42,063 bases of DNA, taken from assembly GCA_018666805.1 (NCBI GenBank), contig JABIXB010000310.1, forward strand, positions 1 through 42,063, written 5' to 3'. Both the position numbers and the translations under genes were made by a program. Shown one piece after another: positions 1-6,661 of the stretch (position 1 is its first letter; each line of letters starts with the position of its first letter). This stretch comes from Rhodospirillaceae bacterium (lineage in GTDB: Bacteria; Pseudomonadota; Alphaproteobacteria; UBA828). The notes below the pieces were generated by a model, which was given only the letters and a program-made list of their open reading frames with translations, ran no database searches and was not told the origin of the DNA.

Positions 1-193
1 CGTCGTCCTGCAGCCAGACCACCGTATCGCCCGGGTTGATCATCACCTTGGCCGGTTCGAATAAAAAATCGCCGCTGTCCTCGTCGAATTTCATTTTGAC
101 GACCGTCGTGTCGGCCTGGGCAGCAGTGGAAACACCCAATCCGATCAGTGCGGCGAGGGCCGCAGAAGCGGCCAGTTTTCCGTATTTCATCAT
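1..193 (-). CDS. Cupredoxin-like periplasmic copper protein (N-terminal part, cut by window edge)
   Basis: Only about the first 64 residues lie in the window. A hydrophobic signal peptide (KLAASAALAALIGLGVSTAAQA) is split by a predicted cleavage after about residue 27 (AQA/D). The mature part then reads DTTVVKMKFDED and continues to INPGDTVVWLQDD, the pattern of plastocyanin/pseudoazurin-like cupredoxins (strand, then pGDtVvW). The copper ligands (His, Cys, His, Met) would lie beyond the edge and cannot be checked. The start is taken as the first of two adjacent ATGs because GGAG sits 7 bases upstream (201-204). It is the last visible gene of the minus-strand metal operon, 24 bases after a small secreted His-rich protein. 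A role as electron carrier or copper carrier for the multicopper oxidase upstream is inference. Confidence 0.7.
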   Translation of the reverse strand, partial: MMKYGKLAASAALAALIGLGVSTAAQADTTVVKMKFDEDSGDFLFEPAKVMINPGDTVVWLQDD

Positions 194-217
194 CTGTATT
201 CTCCGCTAGTGTTAGAG

Positions 218-613
218 TTAATGATCCATGTCTTGGTGTTGGCTCGATTGCGGTTGTTCTTCCGTTATGAGGGATGGGTTAGTCCCTGTGCAGGCGGCGC
301 GGGTGGCGTGGTCGTGGATAAGGTTCTCCGACGCCATGAGCGCATTGCAGCGCGCTTGGTGCGTTATTCCGGCAGCCGATATTGCGGCGCTGGCACGCCC
401 GTCCAGCGGGACGGTTTCCCAACGCCCGTGCAATAGCATTTTCGGATTTTCCCGCCCGACATAGGACCACGAGCCGTCTTCGCCGACAGACATCATGGCC
501 GACATATCGTGCCCCGCATGACCGCCGTCCTCTTGCGCGAAGGCCGGCGCCGTGAGGGCGGTAAGAGCGGCCAGCGCCGCCACAAGCAGAAGCGTTTTAC
601 TTTTGATTAGCAT
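218..613 (-). CDS. Small secreted His/Met-containing protein of unknown function
   Basis: A 131-residue protein with a clear Sec signal peptide (hydrophobic stretch from about residue 7 to 24, cleavage AFA/Q near 26). The mature part begins with a metal-binding-looking segment (GGHAGHDMSAMM), and the C-terminus is again His/Met/Gln rich (SSQHQDMDH). Two cysteines lie in the second half. I do not recognise the family. The ATG at 613 is preferred over an in-frame codon 15 bases upstream because GGAGGAG lies directly before it. It starts 12 bases after the stop of the outer-membrane barrel gene and is followed by the cupredoxin gene, so it is probably translated from the same mRNA. A periplasmic copper-binding role is suggested only by composition and neighbours. 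Confidence 0.7.
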   Translation of the reverse strand: MLIKSKTLLLVAALAALTALTAPAFAQEDGGHAGHDMSAMMSVGEDGSWSYVGRENPKMLLHGRWETVPLDGRASAAISAAGITHQARCNALMASENLIHDHATRAACTGTNPSLITEEQPQSSQHQDMDH

Positions 614-624
614 TATCTCCTCCC

Positions 625-1869
625 TCAATGGCCAAGCCCGGCGGGGCCGGGGTTGAGCATGTTGTGTTCCAGGTCAAGAATAGAGCCGCGTGCGCCGACC
701 GATTCATTGAAGGTCGTATCAAGGGCGAAGGAGAGGCCAAGAAAGAGCGCGTGGCTGCTATCCTTATTCTCTGCCGTGCCCAAGGTGGCGCCATTGTCGA
801 GATAGCGGTACTGGCCGAGCGCCTCGATGCCGCTGCCGATCCGCCAGGCAACGCTCGGCACCAGGGCAAGGGAGGAGGCGTCATTGAAATCGGCGTAATC
901 CTTCCACGCCACCGTGAGCGCCGCCTGCCAATCGGTTTGCAGTTGCGGGCGGGATGTATAGCGCAGCGCACTCACCAGAGCATATTGTTCGCCGCGTGCC
1001 CGCGTCACATCGGAGCCGAGATTGGCAACCCCGGCACCGAAATTATAGATGCCCTGAAAATCCACCGCCCAACCGGCCTCGGGATCGTCGTTGAGATTGT
1101 AGCTGAAGCCGGCCAGGAGCGCCGCGACATCGTCATCATCGCCACCCGCCAATTCGTCGACGCGCTGCCAATCGAAGCCGACGCCGGCATAGCGGATGCC
1201 GCGGTCGAACTTGATCGCTTCGGGCATTTCATAGGCGAAGCCGAGCGCCGCGCCGTTTAAATTGGAGCGCGAGGTGCGATCGCTGCTGGAAAGGTCGCTG
1301 ACATCGGTCTCGGCCCGGGCGGTGGCGAAGGCGCGCGCCTGGAAACGTTTCCACAAATAGCGCGTGCCGCCGAGAACGCCGCCGAAGATTTGATCTTCCT
1401 CGGCTTCCACATTGGCGCCGGCATTGCCGACATGGGTGAAGGCGAGAAGGTCGTCATCGCGCAGCGTCGGAAACGACACAAGCGTGTTGGGCAGGCGCGT
1501 GCGGCCAAGAACAAAATCATAATCCTGGCTGCCCATGCCGACGAGCGCCTGATGGACGAAGATTTCGTCCGGCAGGTCGGAATCGTCTTCCGGTAAAATC
1601 AGGCCGAGCACCGCGTAGCCGTAATCACCGGCGTTGAACATATATTTGCTGGCGCTGATCAGGATGCTTGAATCGGCGATATCGAGCGCTGCCTCGCTCT
1701 TGTTGCCGCCGACCGGACGATCGGTATCGGAGAAATTGGCTGTGGCGATAAGGCGCCCGCCGAGACTGATCTCGGGCGGAACATTGGGATCGATCTCGAG
1801 CGCCACGGCATTCGCGGCGAACAGCGCCGCCGTCAAGCCGGCGGCCATGGATATAATCTGTCTTTTCAT
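625..1869 (-). CDS. Outer-membrane beta-barrel (porin-like) protein
   Basis: A 414-residue protein with a Sec signal peptide (MKRQIISMAAGLTAALFAANAVA, cleavage about residue 23). The rest is made of alternating hydrophobic/polar stretches with many Gly, Asp and aromatic residues, typical of a beta barrel (for example YAGVGFDWQRVDE, ALFLGLSFALDTTF). There is no transmembrane helix after the signal peptide. Acidic loops such as GGDDDDVAA and LPEDDSDLPDE look like extracellular or periplasmic loops. Start ATG has GGA about 10 bases upstream. It lies 18 bases after the multicopper oxidase gene, the position that CopB/PcoB occupies after CopA in copper-resistance operons, but I cannot match it to CopB from motifs. 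Export, import or anchoring of a metal or substrate for the oxidase are all possible. Confidence 0.7.
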   Translation of the reverse strand: MKRQIISMAAGLTAALFAANAVALEIDPNVPPEISLGGRLIATANFSDTDRPVGGNKSEAALDIADSSILISASKYMFNAGDYGYAVLGLILPEDDSDLPDEIFVHQALVGMGSQDYDFVLGRTRLPNTLVSFPTLRDDDLLAFTHVGNAGANVEAEEDQIFGGVLGGTRYLWKRFQARAFATARAETDVSDLSSSDRTSRSNLNGAALGFAYEMPEAIKFDRGIRYAGVGFDWQRVDELAGGDDDDVAALLAGFSYNLNDDPEAGWAVDFQGIYNFGAGVANLGSDVTRARGEQYALVSALRYTSRPQLQTDWQAALTVAWKDYADFNDASSLALVPSVAWRIGSGIEALGQYRYLDNGATLGTAENKDSSHALFLGLSFALDTTFNESVGARGSILDLEHNMLNPGPAGLGH

Positions 1870-1887
1870 AGCTCTGGTCCTTTCCGG

Positions 1888-3153
1888 CTATTCGTTGATG
1901 GCGATTGAGGGCACATAGGGCACGTCGCCCATATCCTCATATTCAAGCAGGGTGAGCATGCCGCCCGGATAGATGCCGTTATTCATCACGCGCCGGACAT
2001 CATGGTCATGGAAGGTCCAGAAGCCCGGATTGTCGCCATAGACGATGATGTCCGCCGTCTTGCCGGGAAAGAGCGACACGGTGTTGAGGCGCTTCGGTTC
2101 GGGCAGCGGATTGCCGTCCTCCGCCACTTGCCAGAAATTATGGCCGTGCAGATGCATGTGATGGGAGAGGAAGCCGCCATTGATCAGGCGGATACGGATA
2201 TATTCGCCTTGCTTGATGAGGAGCTTTTCGGTCGCTGGATAGCATTTGCCGTTGATGGCGAAAAATTCCGGCTCGGGCGTGCTGCGTTCCGCCGCGCCGC
2301 GCGTATAGGGCGGCGTCCAGCCATCGGCGATGGCGGCTTGGAATTCGTCATAATCACGGAAGAAGCCGTGCGTGATCGGATCGAGCTTGCCCATCGCCAT
2401 CAGCTTGTTGACCCGCTTCATGCCGCCCAACACTTCATTGATGTGCTTGCGCGACCAATTAACGTCGAAAGCTTCAAGCATCAGCGTGTAATCACGCGTG
2501 TAGGGGAACATCTTACGCACCGGATCATCGGCCTGATCGATGATAAAGGCGCCGTGCAGGGCCGACATCATGTGCAGCGGCGTTGACCAGTGGCAGTGGT
2601 AAAAGCGCGTGCCGGCGGGGCGCGCCTGAAAGCGGTAGACGAAAGTCTCGCCTGGATGGATTGGGTCCTGCGTCACCATCGGCACGCCGTCCATGGTGTA
2701 GATCACGTCGAGGCCATGCCAATGAATGGTGTGCATTTCCTCGGTGTTGTTGGTGACGTTGACCTTAACCCAGTCGTTTTCCTGCACCCGGAAGAGCGGC
2801 CCCGGCACCTGCTTGTTGAAAGCAAAGACCGGCAGGCTGACGCCCGGTACCAGCTCATGCTCCATCATGTCAAAGCTCATATCGAAGCTGCGGTAGGGCA
2901 CTTCATGATCGCCCGGCGCGCCGGGTGGGTTGGTGCGCGCGCCGATCATATTGTGGCCCTTCATAAACATCATCGAGCCCTGGGCTGGTTGATATTCGCC
3001 GGCCCGCGCCGCGCCGCCCGCAACGCCCATCAGGGCGCCGCCGGTTGCCGCCACCGCCGCCGAACGCAGCAGCGCGCGCCGCGTCGGCCCGGAAGCCGGG
3101 GTATCCGCTTCGGCGTCCCCGGCCGGCAGCGGTGATTTACTCTTCTCGCTCAT
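1888..3153 (-). CDS. Tat-exported two-domain multicopper oxidase, type 1 Cys in domain 1
   Basis: 421 residues. The N-terminus carries a twin-arginine signal (TRRALLRS at about 24-31, then a hydrophobic stretch ending near 51). Domain 1 holds H141, the HWH pair (H144, H146) and the HCH motif (186-188) followed by H194 and M195/M196. Domain 2 holds SHHMHLHGH (H332-H338) and HDH (382-384). The trinuclear copper histidines (HWH, HCH, HLHGH, HDH) are all present. The type 1 cysteine is C187 in domain 1, while the position that carries Cys in ordinary three-domain laccases is Asp383. This fits the two-domain type C layout and recalls nitrite reductase domain 1. Start chosen at ATG with GAGGAG just upstream (the frame is open further upstream). 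Its substrate (Cu(I), Mn(II), phenol or other) cannot be told. The gene sits inside a cluster of secreted metal-binding proteins. Confidence 0.88.
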   Translation of the reverse strand: MSEKSKSPLPAGDAEADTPASGPTRRALLRSAAVAATGGALMGVAGGAARAGEYQPAQGSMMFMKGHNMIGARTNPPGAPGDHEVPYRSFDMSFDMMEHELVPGVSLPVFAFNKQVPGPLFRVQENDWVKVNVTNNTEEMHTIHWHGLDVIYTMDGVPMVTQDPIHPGETFVYRFQARPAGTRFYHCHWSTPLHMMSALHGAFIIDQADDPVRKMFPYTRDYTLMLEAFDVNWSRKHINEVLGGMKRVNKLMAMGKLDPITHGFFRDYDEFQAAIADGWTPPYTRGAAERSTPEPEFFAINGKCYPATEKLLIKQGEYIRIRLINGGFLSHHMHLHGHNFWQVAEDGNPLPEPKRLNTVSLFPGKTADIIVYGDNPGFWTFHDHDVRRVMNNGIYPGGMLTLLEYEDMGDVPYVPSIAINE

Positions 3154-3260
3154 GATCACTCCTCGAAAATTATCCGTCTCAACCGCCATGGATTTAAGAA
3201 GGCCATGGCAGGCCGTCAAGAGCTTCATTGTTGAAGCCCGTCTTCCAAACATGAAACGGG

Positions 3261-3280
3261 AAAACCCGCCTTAGGCGGTT
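3261..3280 (-). terminator. Probable rho-independent terminator after the His-rich gene
   Basis: On the minus strand this reads AACCGCC, loop TAA, then GGCGGG followed by TTTT. The 5-bp GC stem can be lengthened by AA/TT with one bulged base. The loop is the TAA stop codon of the upstream His-rich gene, so the hairpin forms exactly at the end of that reading frame. It is short, so termination may be only partial and the multicopper oxidase may be partly co-transcribed. Confidence 0.45.
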
Positions 3281-3684
3281 CGGGGAGGTTGTTTGAGGCT
3301 CTCGGGTGAGTAGCCGGGCGGCAGATTGCTGAAAAATGATTCTGCGCCGAGAAGTACATAATAGCGCGCCATATCGAAGCCTGCGCCGGCCAGTGCGGAG
3401 GACAAAACGCGCGAGCCCTCACACAGTTCGTCGCCATGATCTGCATGGTTGGTGTGGCCGGGGGTCGATGCGCTGCAATAGACCTTAACCGAGTCTGCAT
3501 CGCTTTGGTCATGCGCCGCGACCGGCGAATGATGGTCGGCATTGGCAGGGCTATCGCGGTGGTGTTGCGCCGCTTCAGTTGCGCCGTTCAAATCCGGCGC
3601 GGCGGCGTTTATTTGGCTGGGGCCGAGATAAATCGTGAGCGCCAGAGCCAGTGCAATGGCGATGCGTCCGGCAATTTTGAACAT
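3271..3684 (-). CDS. Secreted His-rich hypothetical protein
   Basis: 137 residues starting at MFKIAGRI. A Sec signal peptide covers about residues 1-28 (cleavage near NAAA). The mature N-terminal half is rich in His and Asp (QHHRDS, ADHHSPVAAHDQSD, HTNHADHGDE) and has two cysteines (KVYCSAS, ELCEGS). The C-terminal half is more hydrophobic and ends SPESLKQPPRTA. I do not recognise the family. An in-frame codon further upstream would put polar residues ahead of the signal peptide, so the ATG at 3684 with GGAG about 10 bases upstream is preferred. It lies between the cupin and the multicopper oxidase genes. The composition suggests a periplasmic metal-binding protein. Confidence 0.65.
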   Translation of the reverse strand: MFKIAGRIAIALALALTIYLGPSQINAAAPDLNGATEAAQHHRDSPANADHHSPVAAHDQSDADSVKVYCSASTPGHTNHADHGDELCEGSRVLSSALAGAGFDMARYYVLLGAESFFSNLPPGYSPESLKQPPRTA

Positions 3685-3803
3685 ATTAGCCTGCTCCAGC
3701 CGATGTGGCGGGCCAAATTCCCAAGCGTCACTCCTCATACTGCCAACATATGGTTTCCAGTAACAGGAAGGTCAAGGGGAAAGGCAAAGTTTGGCGATTT
3801 AAT

Positions 3804-4301
3804 CTAATCATGATGATCGTCATCATCACCGGAGTCATGATGGCCACCGTTGCTACCGTGCTGGTCATCGTCAGAACCATGATGGCCTGACGCGCCGGCG
3901 CGGTCGATATTGATGATGAGACCGCTTAGCCCTTCGCTTTGGCTCGCGTTCCGCGCCACGGTCTTGCTCCCGAGCGTTTCGTAATAGGTGTCGCCGGGCC
4001 CATATTCACGCTCGCCGCGCGCTTCCACATCAGAGATCAGATTGCCCTCAAGCACGTAGATCACGGCGTCGGTTTCGTGCACATGGGCATCGCCCTGCCA
4101 ACCGGGCGGCACATGAAAGCGCGTAATTTTTATTTTCAAATCCGCATCGGCGGCGAGCGCGTGCTCAACAAGAACGCGCATCTCGATTTCCTGCGCGGCC
4201 GCGCCAGGCGTCTGGCAGGCAAGCATCAGCGAAGCGGTAACGACGAATGCGAAAATTAGGCGAGTGCCAGATCCAATTCCAAACCCATTGCCAAGTCCCA
4301 T
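3804..4301 (-). CDS. Secreted cupin-domain protein with His/Asp-rich tail
   Basis: 165 residues. The N-terminus has a hydrophobic signal (RLIFAFVVTASLMLACQTPGAAA). The SLMLAC context could instead be read as a lipoprotein box, with Cys29 as the lipid site. A single cupin barrel follows: FHVPPGWQGDAHVHETD gives the HxH...E metal-site pattern (motif 1), and YGPGDTYYE gives the PGD of the inter-motif. The last 30 residues are almost only Gly, His, Asp and Ser (GHHGSDDDQHG, HHDSGDDDDHHD) and look like a flexible metal-binding or metal-buffering tail. Start ATG has a GAAGGGA upstream. It is 18 bases downstream of the cyclase gene. A metal storage or sensing role is inference from the tail and the operon. 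Confidence 0.78.
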   Translation of the reverse strand: MGLGNGFGIGSGTRLIFAFVVTASLMLACQTPGAAAQEIEMRVLVEHALAADADLKIKITRFHVPPGWQGDAHVHETDAVIYVLEGNLISDVEARGEREYGPGDTYYETLGSKTVARNASQSEGLSGLIINIDRAGASGHHGSDDDQHGSNGGHHDSGDDDDHHD

Positions 4302-4319
4302 GACGATTTCCCTTCAAAT

Positions 4320-5633
4320 TTAGTTACCAAGGCTGGCTATATTTAGCCGGAAAACTTCTACCGATCCAGTACGCCCAGGAAGATTCTGCGGCGGCAGGGC
4401 CTGCCATCTAGGGTCGTCCGTCATCTCGTCGGCGGCGTGCAACAGATCTGCCGAGACGACGAGCGGCGCGCCGACGGTTCGTGTCAGCTTTTCGAGACGT
4501 TCGGCGACGTTCACGGTATCGCCGATGACGGTGTATTCGAGGCGGGTCTCATTGCCTATGGCGCCGGCGAATACCTGACCGTAATGGACGCCGATGCCGA
4601 GCGCGATCGCCGGCCGGCCGTCAGCCTGCCGTTCGCGATTCCAGCCGTGCAGGGTTTCAACCATGTCGAGGGCACAATGTAAGGCGTTTCGCGCATCGTC
4701 CGGCCCCGGCCGGGGCGTTCCAAAAACGCCCATGATGGCGTCGCCGATGAATTTATCGATGACGCCGCCATGTTGCTCGATAGGGTGCGACATGCGGCCT
4801 CGGAAATCTGTCAGAAGCGCTGCCACTGCACCTGCCTCTAATTTCTCCGACATGGCGGTGAATCCCCTGATATCGACGAAGAGCACCGCCGCGTCTTGTC
4901 TGTGACCCTGCCACATCGCTTCGAGGCCGGAATCGGCAAGCTCTCCCGCCATGCCGTGCGGAACATAGCGCGCCAGGTTGGCGCTTCGCCGGGTTTGCGT
5001 GATGGAAGTGAACAGGCAGTTCCTGGCCCGCGATACGGAAACCACGACGATGATGCCCGTTAATATAATAATTGCCACGCGCACTGCTTCGCTGGCCAGA
5101 CCGTGGTGGCCGGTCCCCATTTGCAGGCCGGCGGGCAGGAGGTCCTCGCCTCCGCTTACCGGAAAAATATCGGAGAGGCCGATGAGCAGCACCCAAAGGG
5201 TGCTAAAGAGCGCAACGGTGTATGCGATCAACCAGGGGCGGTGGCGCAACGCGGCATGCGCAATAAATACAAAAATCAATGCCGAGCCGGGAATGCCGAG
5301 GATGGCGCTCAGCGGCGCCTCCATCGCCAGCGACATAAGGATCAGAAAGCCGAGCAGTAGGAGCACATCTATCGTCACGAACAACCACGGCAGCCAGGGC
5401 CGGAAGAAGCGGCGAAAAGCGAGTATTTCCGCGCTTAAGGTGAGCAGGCCGTAACCGCCGGCAAGCGCATACATGGATTGATGATGGTGATGGCCGGGCG
5501 CCGAAATATTAAGCACCAGGGCGAGAATTACAGCGAAGACCAAAACGCGCAAATGGGCAGAGAGGAGTTCGCTGTGGCGCTCCGCCTGCTCGAAGATGGT
5601 TTTTATATGTGCGGACATATCCATTATATGCAT
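4320..5633 (-). CDS. Membrane-bound class III adenylate/guanylate cyclase
   Basis: 437 residues. About six membrane helices occupy residues 28-205, and a class III cyclase catalytic domain covers about 245-430. Metal-binding aspartates are D254 (FVDIRGFT) and D298 (FIGDAIMG); a substrate lysine is at K294; and IGDTVNVAERLE supplies the transition-state N375 and R379. So the domain looks active. The first loop after helix 1 carries HHHH (48-51), and a later loop has GHHG (175-178). No HAMP or PAS is visible. The exact start is uncertain: three ATGs lie within 18 bases (5633, 5624, 5618), and AGGA overlaps the first. It is first in the minus-strand metal operon, followed after 18 bases by the cupin gene. 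Whether it makes cAMP or cGMP cannot be decided by eye. Metal sensing by the His loop is a hypothesis. Confidence 0.88.
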   Translation of the reverse strand: MHIMDMSAHIKTIFEQAERHSELLSAHLRVLVFAVILALVLNISAPGHHHHQSMYALAGGYGLLTLSAEILAFRRFFRPWLPWLFVTIDVLLLLGFLILMSLAMEAPLSAILGIPGSALIFVFIAHAALRHRPWLIAYTVALFSTLWVLLIGLSDIFPVSGGEDLLPAGLQMGTGHHGLASEAVRVAIIILTGIIVVVSVSRARNCLFTSITQTRRSANLARYVPHGMAGELADSGLEAMWQGHRQDAAVLFVDIRGFTAMSEKLEAGAVAALLTDFRGRMSHPIEQHGGVIDKFIGDAIMGVFGTPRPGPDDARNALHCALDMVETLHGWNRERQADGRPAIALGIGVHYGQVFAGAIGNETRLEYTVIGDTVNVAERLEKLTRTVGAPLVVSADLLHAADEMTDDPRWQALPPQNLPGRTGSVEVFRLNIASLGN

Positions 5634-5683
5634 CCTGGATAATTGAGTATTGCAGGTGGCTGTAAAACGAGAGAAATCAAGAG

Positions 5684-6661
5684 ATGTTATTTAATTTTCT
5701 CGGCCGCACCGGGCTTTCGGTATCGCCGCTTTGCGCCGGCACCTTAGCCTTTGGCGGCGATGCCGATGAAGCTGAATCCTTGGCGATGTATGGCGCCTGC
5801 CGTGATGCCGGGGTCAACTTTTTCGATTGCGCCGATAGCTATGCCGGCGGGCAGGCCGAGACGGTTTTCGGCAAACTCATGGCGCATGAGCGCAACGAAC
5901 TGGTGATCACGTCGAAATGCGGTTATCCGGTGAGCGCCGAAGACAGTGGTGAGGGCGCCAGCCGGCAGCACATCACGCGCGCGGTCGAGGCCAGCCTGAA
6001 GCGGCTCGGCACCGATCGGCTCGATGTATTTCTCATGCATCAGTGGGATGCACAGACGCCGCTTGAAGAAACATTGCGCTGCCTGGAAGAACTCCGCCGC
6101 GCCGGCAAGGTGCTCCATCTTGGCGCCAGCAATTATGCCGCCTGGCAGGTGGCCAAGGGCCTGGGCATTGCCGAGCGCCACGGCTGGGCGCGCTTCGAGG
6201 TGGTTCAGCCGATGTACAATCTGATCAAACGCCAAGCGGAATCCGAAATCCTGCCGTTGGCCAAATTCGAACAGCTCGCCGTCACGCCCTATAGCCCGAC
6301 GGCGGGCGGATTGTTGAGCGGCGATTACCGCGATGGCAAACAACCCGAGCGCGGTCGTCTGGTGGTGAACGATGAATATGCCGCGCGCTACGGCGAGGAT
6401 TGGATTATGGAATGCGCCACCAACTTCGCCGATTTCGCCGAAGCGCGCGGACACCACCCGGTGAGCCTCGCAGTGGCCTGGGTCGCGGCCCATCCCGATG
6501 TGACCTGCCCAATCATCGGCGCGCTTGATGTCGCCCAGCTAAGACCTTCCCTGAACGCCCTCGACATCGGGATGACGGCGGAACTGCACGGCGAAATCAG
6601 CCGCCTTTCGCGCCGGCCGGCACCGGCGCACGATCGCTCTGAAACGCTCAATATGGATTAA
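5684..6661 (+). CDS. Aldo/keto reductase
   Basis: 325 residues, the usual length for aldo/keto reductases of the YajO/Kv-beta type. The catalytic tetrad is visible: D48 and Y53 (FFDCADSYAGG), K78 (ITSKCG) and H119 (FLMHQWD). The N-terminal LGRTGLSVSPLCAGT and the later CPIIGA near 278 (cofactor phosphate region) support an NAD(P)H-dependent (beta/alpha)8 barrel. The substrate cannot be inferred. AAGAG lies just before the ATG. It is divergent from the cyclase gene with only 50 bases between the starts. Its stop codon overlaps the stop of the convergent SulP gene by 4 bases. Confidence 0.88.
   Translation: MLFNFLGRTGLSVSPLCAGTLAFGGDADEAESLAMYGACRDAGVNFFDCADSYAGGQAETVFGKLMAHERNELVITSKCGYPVSAEDSGEGASRQHITRAVEASLKRLGTDRLDVFLMHQWDAQTPLEETLRCLEELRRAGKVLHLGASNYAAWQVAKGLGIAERHGWARFEVVQPMYNLIKRQAESEILPLAKFEQLAVTPYSPTAGGLLSGDYRDGKQPERGRLVVNDEYAARYGEDWIMECATNFADFAEARGHHPVSLAVAWVAAHPDVTCPIIGALDVAQLRPSLNALDIGMTAELHGEISRLSRRPAPAHDRSETLNMD

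Follow-up and report, generated by a model that had tools for sequence, protein, structure and literature searches.

At the start of the window, i.e., the whole stretch of 42,063 nucleotides analysed here, seven consecutive genes lie on the minus strand in the order cyclase, cupin, His-rich protein, two-domain laccase, barrel, His/Met protein and cupredoxin (Table 1), and the order given in a preliminary description of this DNA was thereby found for all seven. Contig C229 begins with the window; the cupredoxin is cut at this end, and the operon may therefore continue beyond it.

Table 1. Genes and features of the cyclase locus (positions in the window)
Feature	Position	Strand	Remarks
Cupredoxin, truncated by contig end	1..193	-	Gene runs 193 down to 1
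Small secreted His/Met-containing protein, conserved core	218..613	-	Moderately His/Met rich, not strongly His-rich
Outer-membrane barrel-like protein, conserved core	625..1869	-	50-86% in relatives; Pfam match only sub-threshold
Tat-type two-domain laccase (multicopper oxidase), conserved core	1888..3252	-	71-91% in relatives
Secreted His-rich protein, part of conserved core	3271..3738	-	52% identical in G002
Secreted cupin with His/Asp-rich tail GHHGSDDDQHGSNGGHHDSGDDDDHHD	3804..4301	-	PF07883
Predicted class IIIb adenylyl cyclase, N-terminal 6-TM domain, 437 aa	4320..5633	-	PF00211, E 1e-23, 84 bits
Catalytic domain core, residues 244-387	4473..4904	-	PF00211; Foldseek to CyaC, Cya2, CyaB
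Six-helix membrane domain and signalling helix, residues 1-222	4968..5633	-	AF2 helices
GHHG, residues 175-178, TM5-6 loop, predicted periplasmic	5100..5111	-	Low-confidence loop in model
HHHH, residues 48-51, TM1-2 loop, predicted periplasmic	5481..5492	-	Unique to window member
Promoter-like site TTTACA-N16-AATTAT, just upstream of cyclase	5639..5666	-	Consensus match only

The oxidase features Cu-oxidase domains and a Tat-type motif, TRRALLRS. Its top PDB matches were the two-domain laccases 2zwn and 3g5w, and with two cupredoxin domains it falls into the two-domain laccase class; compared with plasmids at E 1e-60, it had no match. The preliminary description had counted two secreted His-rich proteins. 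This holds for the protein encoded next to the cupin, for which no family match was found, whereas the term is too strong for the small protein encoded next to the cupredoxin. The real start of the cyclase is likely Met4 at position 5624, because an AGG lies 7 nt upstream and the promoter-like site ends at 5639; sites of the TTTACA/AATTAT kind were no more frequent than in shuffles. A divergent aldo/keto reductase gene (5684-6661) begins at a distance of only 50 bp from the cyclase and may share its promoter region.

In a 98% complete genome of the same genus (G002), the operon comprises a His protein, a laccase (87-91%), a barrel (86%), a small protein and a cupredoxin. DNA similarity to the window ends at position 3777, just short of the cupin, and both cyclase and cupin are absent from this operon. 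The two-domain laccase operons of G007, G008, G021 and G243 likewise have the laccase–barrel core in the order of the window (partial in some contigs, which are cut by their ends) without its cyclase and cupin, and a membrane domain of the window type occurred in 0 of 20 other genomes of the genus or family. The cyclase and the cupin are therefore additions in the window's genome. A role of the cyclase as the standard leader or regulator of a laccase–cupin operon was rejected, since the core of the relatives lacks it. The preliminary description had made its case depend on synteny of the cyclase with this oxidase and cupin; this synteny was not found in the host's relatives, whereas a link to copper genes was found for the clade of the cyclase itself. 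Also, its picture of an operon led by the cyclase fits the window and Phyllobacterium, whereas at most related cyclase loci the gene is last or internal.

Two further features of the G002 locus concern its 3' part. The cupredoxin (L251:10138-10971) has a long Met/His/Asp repeat tail (GMKHGDMDDMKHGDKDG...) like copper-binding repeats. Roughly 150 bp past it, another membrane class III cyclase is encoded convergently (L251:11114-12547), which matches the window cyclase at 34% and in the catalytic part only; as these genomes are rich in cyclases, its position could be chance.

One cyclase clade is recurrently tied to copper and metal modules

Searches with the membrane half alone returned close relatives from unrelated alphaproteobacterial families. 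The profile scores were two-peaked, lying above 120 or below 105 bits in the order searches and above 220 or below 98 bits in an even class sample. Of the 8 cyclases with more than 220 bits in this sample of 372 class genomes, 7 were metal-linked; the score after these 8 was 98. A tree of 55 rows united the high-scoring group, L127 and L232 in a single clade that includes the window (support 97/95). L127 and L232 belong to this clade but are not metal-linked. The metal label required 3 changes on the tree vs 18.1 in shuffles, and 0 of 500 shuffles were as low.

Linkage was scored in neighbourhoods of up to 19 kb by copper or heavy-metal resistance genes within 10 kb of the cyclase, the marker set comprising oxidase, cupredoxin, CusF, CusC, Czc parts, P-type ATPase, DUF411, COG4315 and others. 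Two or more kinds of marker were found at 29 of 30 readable clade loci, a count that is circular for those markers that were drawn from clade loci, compared with 1 of 25 sister cyclases (one kind) and none of 20 loci drawn at random from the same hosts. By these two controls, the abundance of cyclases was rejected as the source of the linkage. The 20 loci fetched after the markers had been chosen (L199-L219 minus the 4 kb L212) were still metal-linked throughout, and Pfam searches on the sample neighbours returned Cu-oxidase, Copper-bind, CusF and heavy-metal ATPase. Metal-linked members came from at least eight families (f1, f129, f94, f97, f108, f39, f68 and Methylobacteriaceae), with many of the sampled clade loci from one family, f68; plasmid records add Rhizobiaceae and Phyllobacteriaceae. 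In two phylum samples, the clade was not found outside the window's class, to which all matches listed belonged, and the reach of these searches may have been limited. These data show that the metal-linked cyclases are one clade recurrently tied to different copper/metal modules in Alphaproteobacteria. The tie between a class III cyclase and copper genes, which had been described for the window, hence extends far beyond it.

A plasmid search with the membrane half of L129 gave six records from two species. All five records examined, from Sinorhizobium and Phyllobacterium, place the cyclase in copper clusters by their own independent annotation. In S. meliloti (GR4 pRmeGR4a, Ak57, HM006), the order is TolC, copper oxidase, plastocyanin-like protein, copper-binding protein and cyclase; two strains carry the locus on conjugative plasmids and the third on a replicon named pSymB, and in GR4 the cyclase lies at 164145-165497 of pRmeGR4a. 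In Phyllobacterium zundukense the cyclase comes first, followed by two small genes, TolC, copper oxidase, cupredoxin and copper-binding protein. The annotation of strain A18/3m splits the cyclase into two frames (L306:8977-10258), so that it may be broken there. The Microvirga locus reads cueR, FixH proteins, RND, cyclase and the copper-binding protein CusF, and in Thalassobaculum an APC permease precedes the cyclase inside a copper and mercury region.

The location on plasmids in Thalassobaculum, Microvirga, Sinorhizobium and Phyllobacterium, together with the absence of the cyclase from close relatives of the window's host, would agree with a passenger gene that rides mobile copper islands without a role in the copper response. 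We consider this very improbable, since the linkage is confined to one clade across varied modules and several families, and since residues for activity are kept and, at several loci, the genes follow each other closely on one strand, at 0-11 bp in the case of a P-type ATPase. The cyclase also often closes a metal operon or lies inside it, and MerR genes are found close by, as would be expected if it were an output that CueR/MerR or CopRS induce with the operon and that then makes cAMP either constitutively or as directed by bicarbonate or another cytosolic control. Bicarbonate is known to act on class IIIb enzymes, CyaC among them, which counts for this explanation. Induction alone, however, would need neither the selection on the membrane half nor the loop composition unlike that of sister cyclases (see below), and we regard a pure output role as rather unlikely.

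Architecture of the cyclase and its periplasmic loops

The catalytic residues D254, K294, D298, T368, N375 and R379 are all present in the window cyclase. Metal-binding D254 and D298, as in class III nucleotide cyclases, occur in all clade members with data, and the Lys/Thr pair for substrate specificity (K294/T368) and the Asn/Arg pair of the transition state (N375/R379), as in class IIIb, in 31 of 31. We predict the window protein to be a class IIIb adenylyl cyclase; its product may also be cGMP, one PDB relative, Cya2 (2w01), being titled guanylyl cyclase. The catalytic domain is nearest to IIIb enzymes of the CyaC type. CyaC, Cya2 and CyaB (1wc0, 2w01, 3r5g) share the catalytic fold at ~30% identity but have no membrane domain matching that of the window cyclase. 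Between TM6 and the catalytic domain, no HAMP match was found in Pfam or NCBIfam. The sister cyclases L133, L134, L136, L137 and L138 have Lys in place of Arg at transition-state position 379 and a context of their own, several with a response regulator, a metallo-beta-lactamase-like protein, a small gene and the cyclase.

The AF2 model (mean pLDDT 80, from a thin 18-row alignment, with a poorly resolved TM5-6 loop) places helices at residues 2-43, 51-73, 81-103, 108-128, 133-156 and 178-221, ahead of the catalytic domain. Lys and Arg make up 17-23% of the predicted cytoplasmic segments vs 2-4% of the periplasmic loops. Helices and positive-inside charge thus describe a 6TM-anchored protein with short loops and both ends in the cytoplasm. 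The preliminary description had placed a His cluster on the outer side of the membrane. Both motifs, HHHH and GHHG, are present at the residues it named, and helix placement and the K/R distribution lead to their prediction as periplasmic. The HHHH cluster did not prove conserved, being found in the window member alone, and it was rejected as a conserved metal site.

The recurring feature of the clade is rather a His, sometimes a Met, somewhere in the periplasmic loops, with no fixed His position. In the TM1-2 loop, 11.8% of residues are His in the clade vs 0.3% in sister cyclases, and at least one His occurs there in 28 of 32 clade members vs 1 of 21 sister cyclases; the TM3-4 loop holds 2.2 His and Met residues vs 0.9, and for all these comparisons the rows are related by descent, so that p-values overstate their independence. 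Four of the 32 members (L125, L211, L213 and L232) have no His in the first loop, and the first three of these are metal-linked although they lack it. The TM5-6 loop displays no overall His/Met enrichment in the clade. In L126, L130, L218 and L219, Met-rich TM5-6 loops (GMPMAMPQRM, DHMMGMAGMPMG) replace His clusters and hint at Cu(I) ligands. Purifying selection acts on the membrane domain, as the 200 N-terminal codons gave dN/dS values of 0.07-0.24 in eight pairs, near the value for the rest of the gene.

Since the His positions vary, direct coordination would not take place at a fixed site, and the membrane domain might instead sense another copper-stress signal, for example, the redox or heme state, envelope damage or a partner such as a cupredoxin or CusF. 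The frequent c-type cytochromes among the neighbours would agree with this. However, the 21 representatives have no conserved intramembrane His pattern of the heme type, and H126, present in 15 of them, lies at the cytoplasmic end of TM4. We hence hold an indirect signal to be improbable.

Copper as a candidate signal

CueR, CopRS/CusRS, CsoR and CopY are copper-sensing regulators linked to copper oxidase and efflux genes, and kinases of the CusS type sense periplasmic copper. The output of these regulators is direct transcription or phosphotransfer, whereas the window clade would put out cAMP. Recurrence of the cyclase in copper-resistance clusters suggests a so far undescribed route from copper outside the inner membrane to a cAMP signal. 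We give about an even chance to the reading that this copper-linked cyclase makes cAMP and that its membrane domain serves as a sensor, either of periplasmic copper or of a signal related to copper. That the six-helix domain itself is a direct periplasmic receptor converting external copper into cAMP is a more tentative proposal. We infer copper as the signal, its direct binding, cAMP as the product and the regulator that would read it.

In the mechanism that we propose, copper, or a partner loaded with it, would bind to the periplasmic side of the homodimer's membrane domain. The helix that follows TM6 would relay this signal to the catalytic dimer, which would respond with a rise in cAMP, and a Crp-type regulator might then alter transcription of copper or envelope genes. 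At the window locus, the cyclase and the His-tailed cupin have been added ahead of a conserved laccase–barrel–cupredoxin operon. Clade support, linkage, intact catalytic residues, purifying selection and the His-richer loops speak for such a sensor. Variable His positions, the two unlinked members, the relatives' core without a cyclase, the split P. zundukense frame, the weight of f68 in the sample and the lack of a recurring effector outside Phyllobacterium speak against it.

It has been argued that membrane anchors of class III cyclases, six-helix ones included, can work as receptors, and that of Rv1625c has been called an orphan receptor (PMC4821796). The same work defines cluster 3, i.e., 6TM class IIIb cyclases without HAMP that are found mainly in alphaproteobacteria and of which, to its authors' knowledge in 2016, none had ever been tested (PMC4821796). 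The window clade, compared with this cluster by description only, shares with it six short TM helices, class IIIb, no HAMP by Pfam and an alphaproteobacterial origin, and differs in being defined by copper-cluster linkage and His-bearing periplasmic loops. In M. tuberculosis Cya, an extracellular site, Ex1, was proposed to bind cations, and activity of the mutant was strongly reduced (PMC9433096). This enzyme (Rv1625c, 7yzk) also consists of a 6TM domain, a long helix and a catalytic domain, and Foldseek aligns it with the window model over 429 columns. In contrast, it belongs to class IIIa, is 22% identical, has an acidic rather than a His-bearing site and has no known copper link. A literature search, with subscription journals mostly outside its scope, found no description of a copper-linked cyclase, which is not proof of absence; the text of a large 2020 review of bacterial copper homeostasis makes no mention of cyclases or cAMP.

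Among the signals that the large anchors of class III adenylyl cyclases may sense, the gene neighbourhood names copper as one candidate for this clade. If the sensor model holds, a second-messenger arm would be added to bacterial copper control. Were the membrane domain a direct receptor, an orphan 6TM anchor of a bacterial cyclase would, to our knowledge, have a physiological ligand for the first time, namely, copper, and copper would be sensed by a route not described so far.

A cNMP effector linked to the cyclase was rejected as a rule, as none recurs beside clade cyclases except in Phyllobacterium. In P. zundukense, a Crp/Fnr gene with a cNMP-binding domain lies 1.3 to 3 kb upstream of the cyclase; the genes of this type in two strains (L307:7165-7725 and L306:5400-5960) are candidate readers of the signal. 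The window's genome (G000) contains about a dozen cNMP-binding genes elsewhere, so that a reader protein would be available. The clade includes members in the genetically tractable S. meliloti. Several clade copies can also occur in one genome, namely, two in G299 (L128, L129) and three in G784 (L199-L201), each in its own metal neighbourhood.
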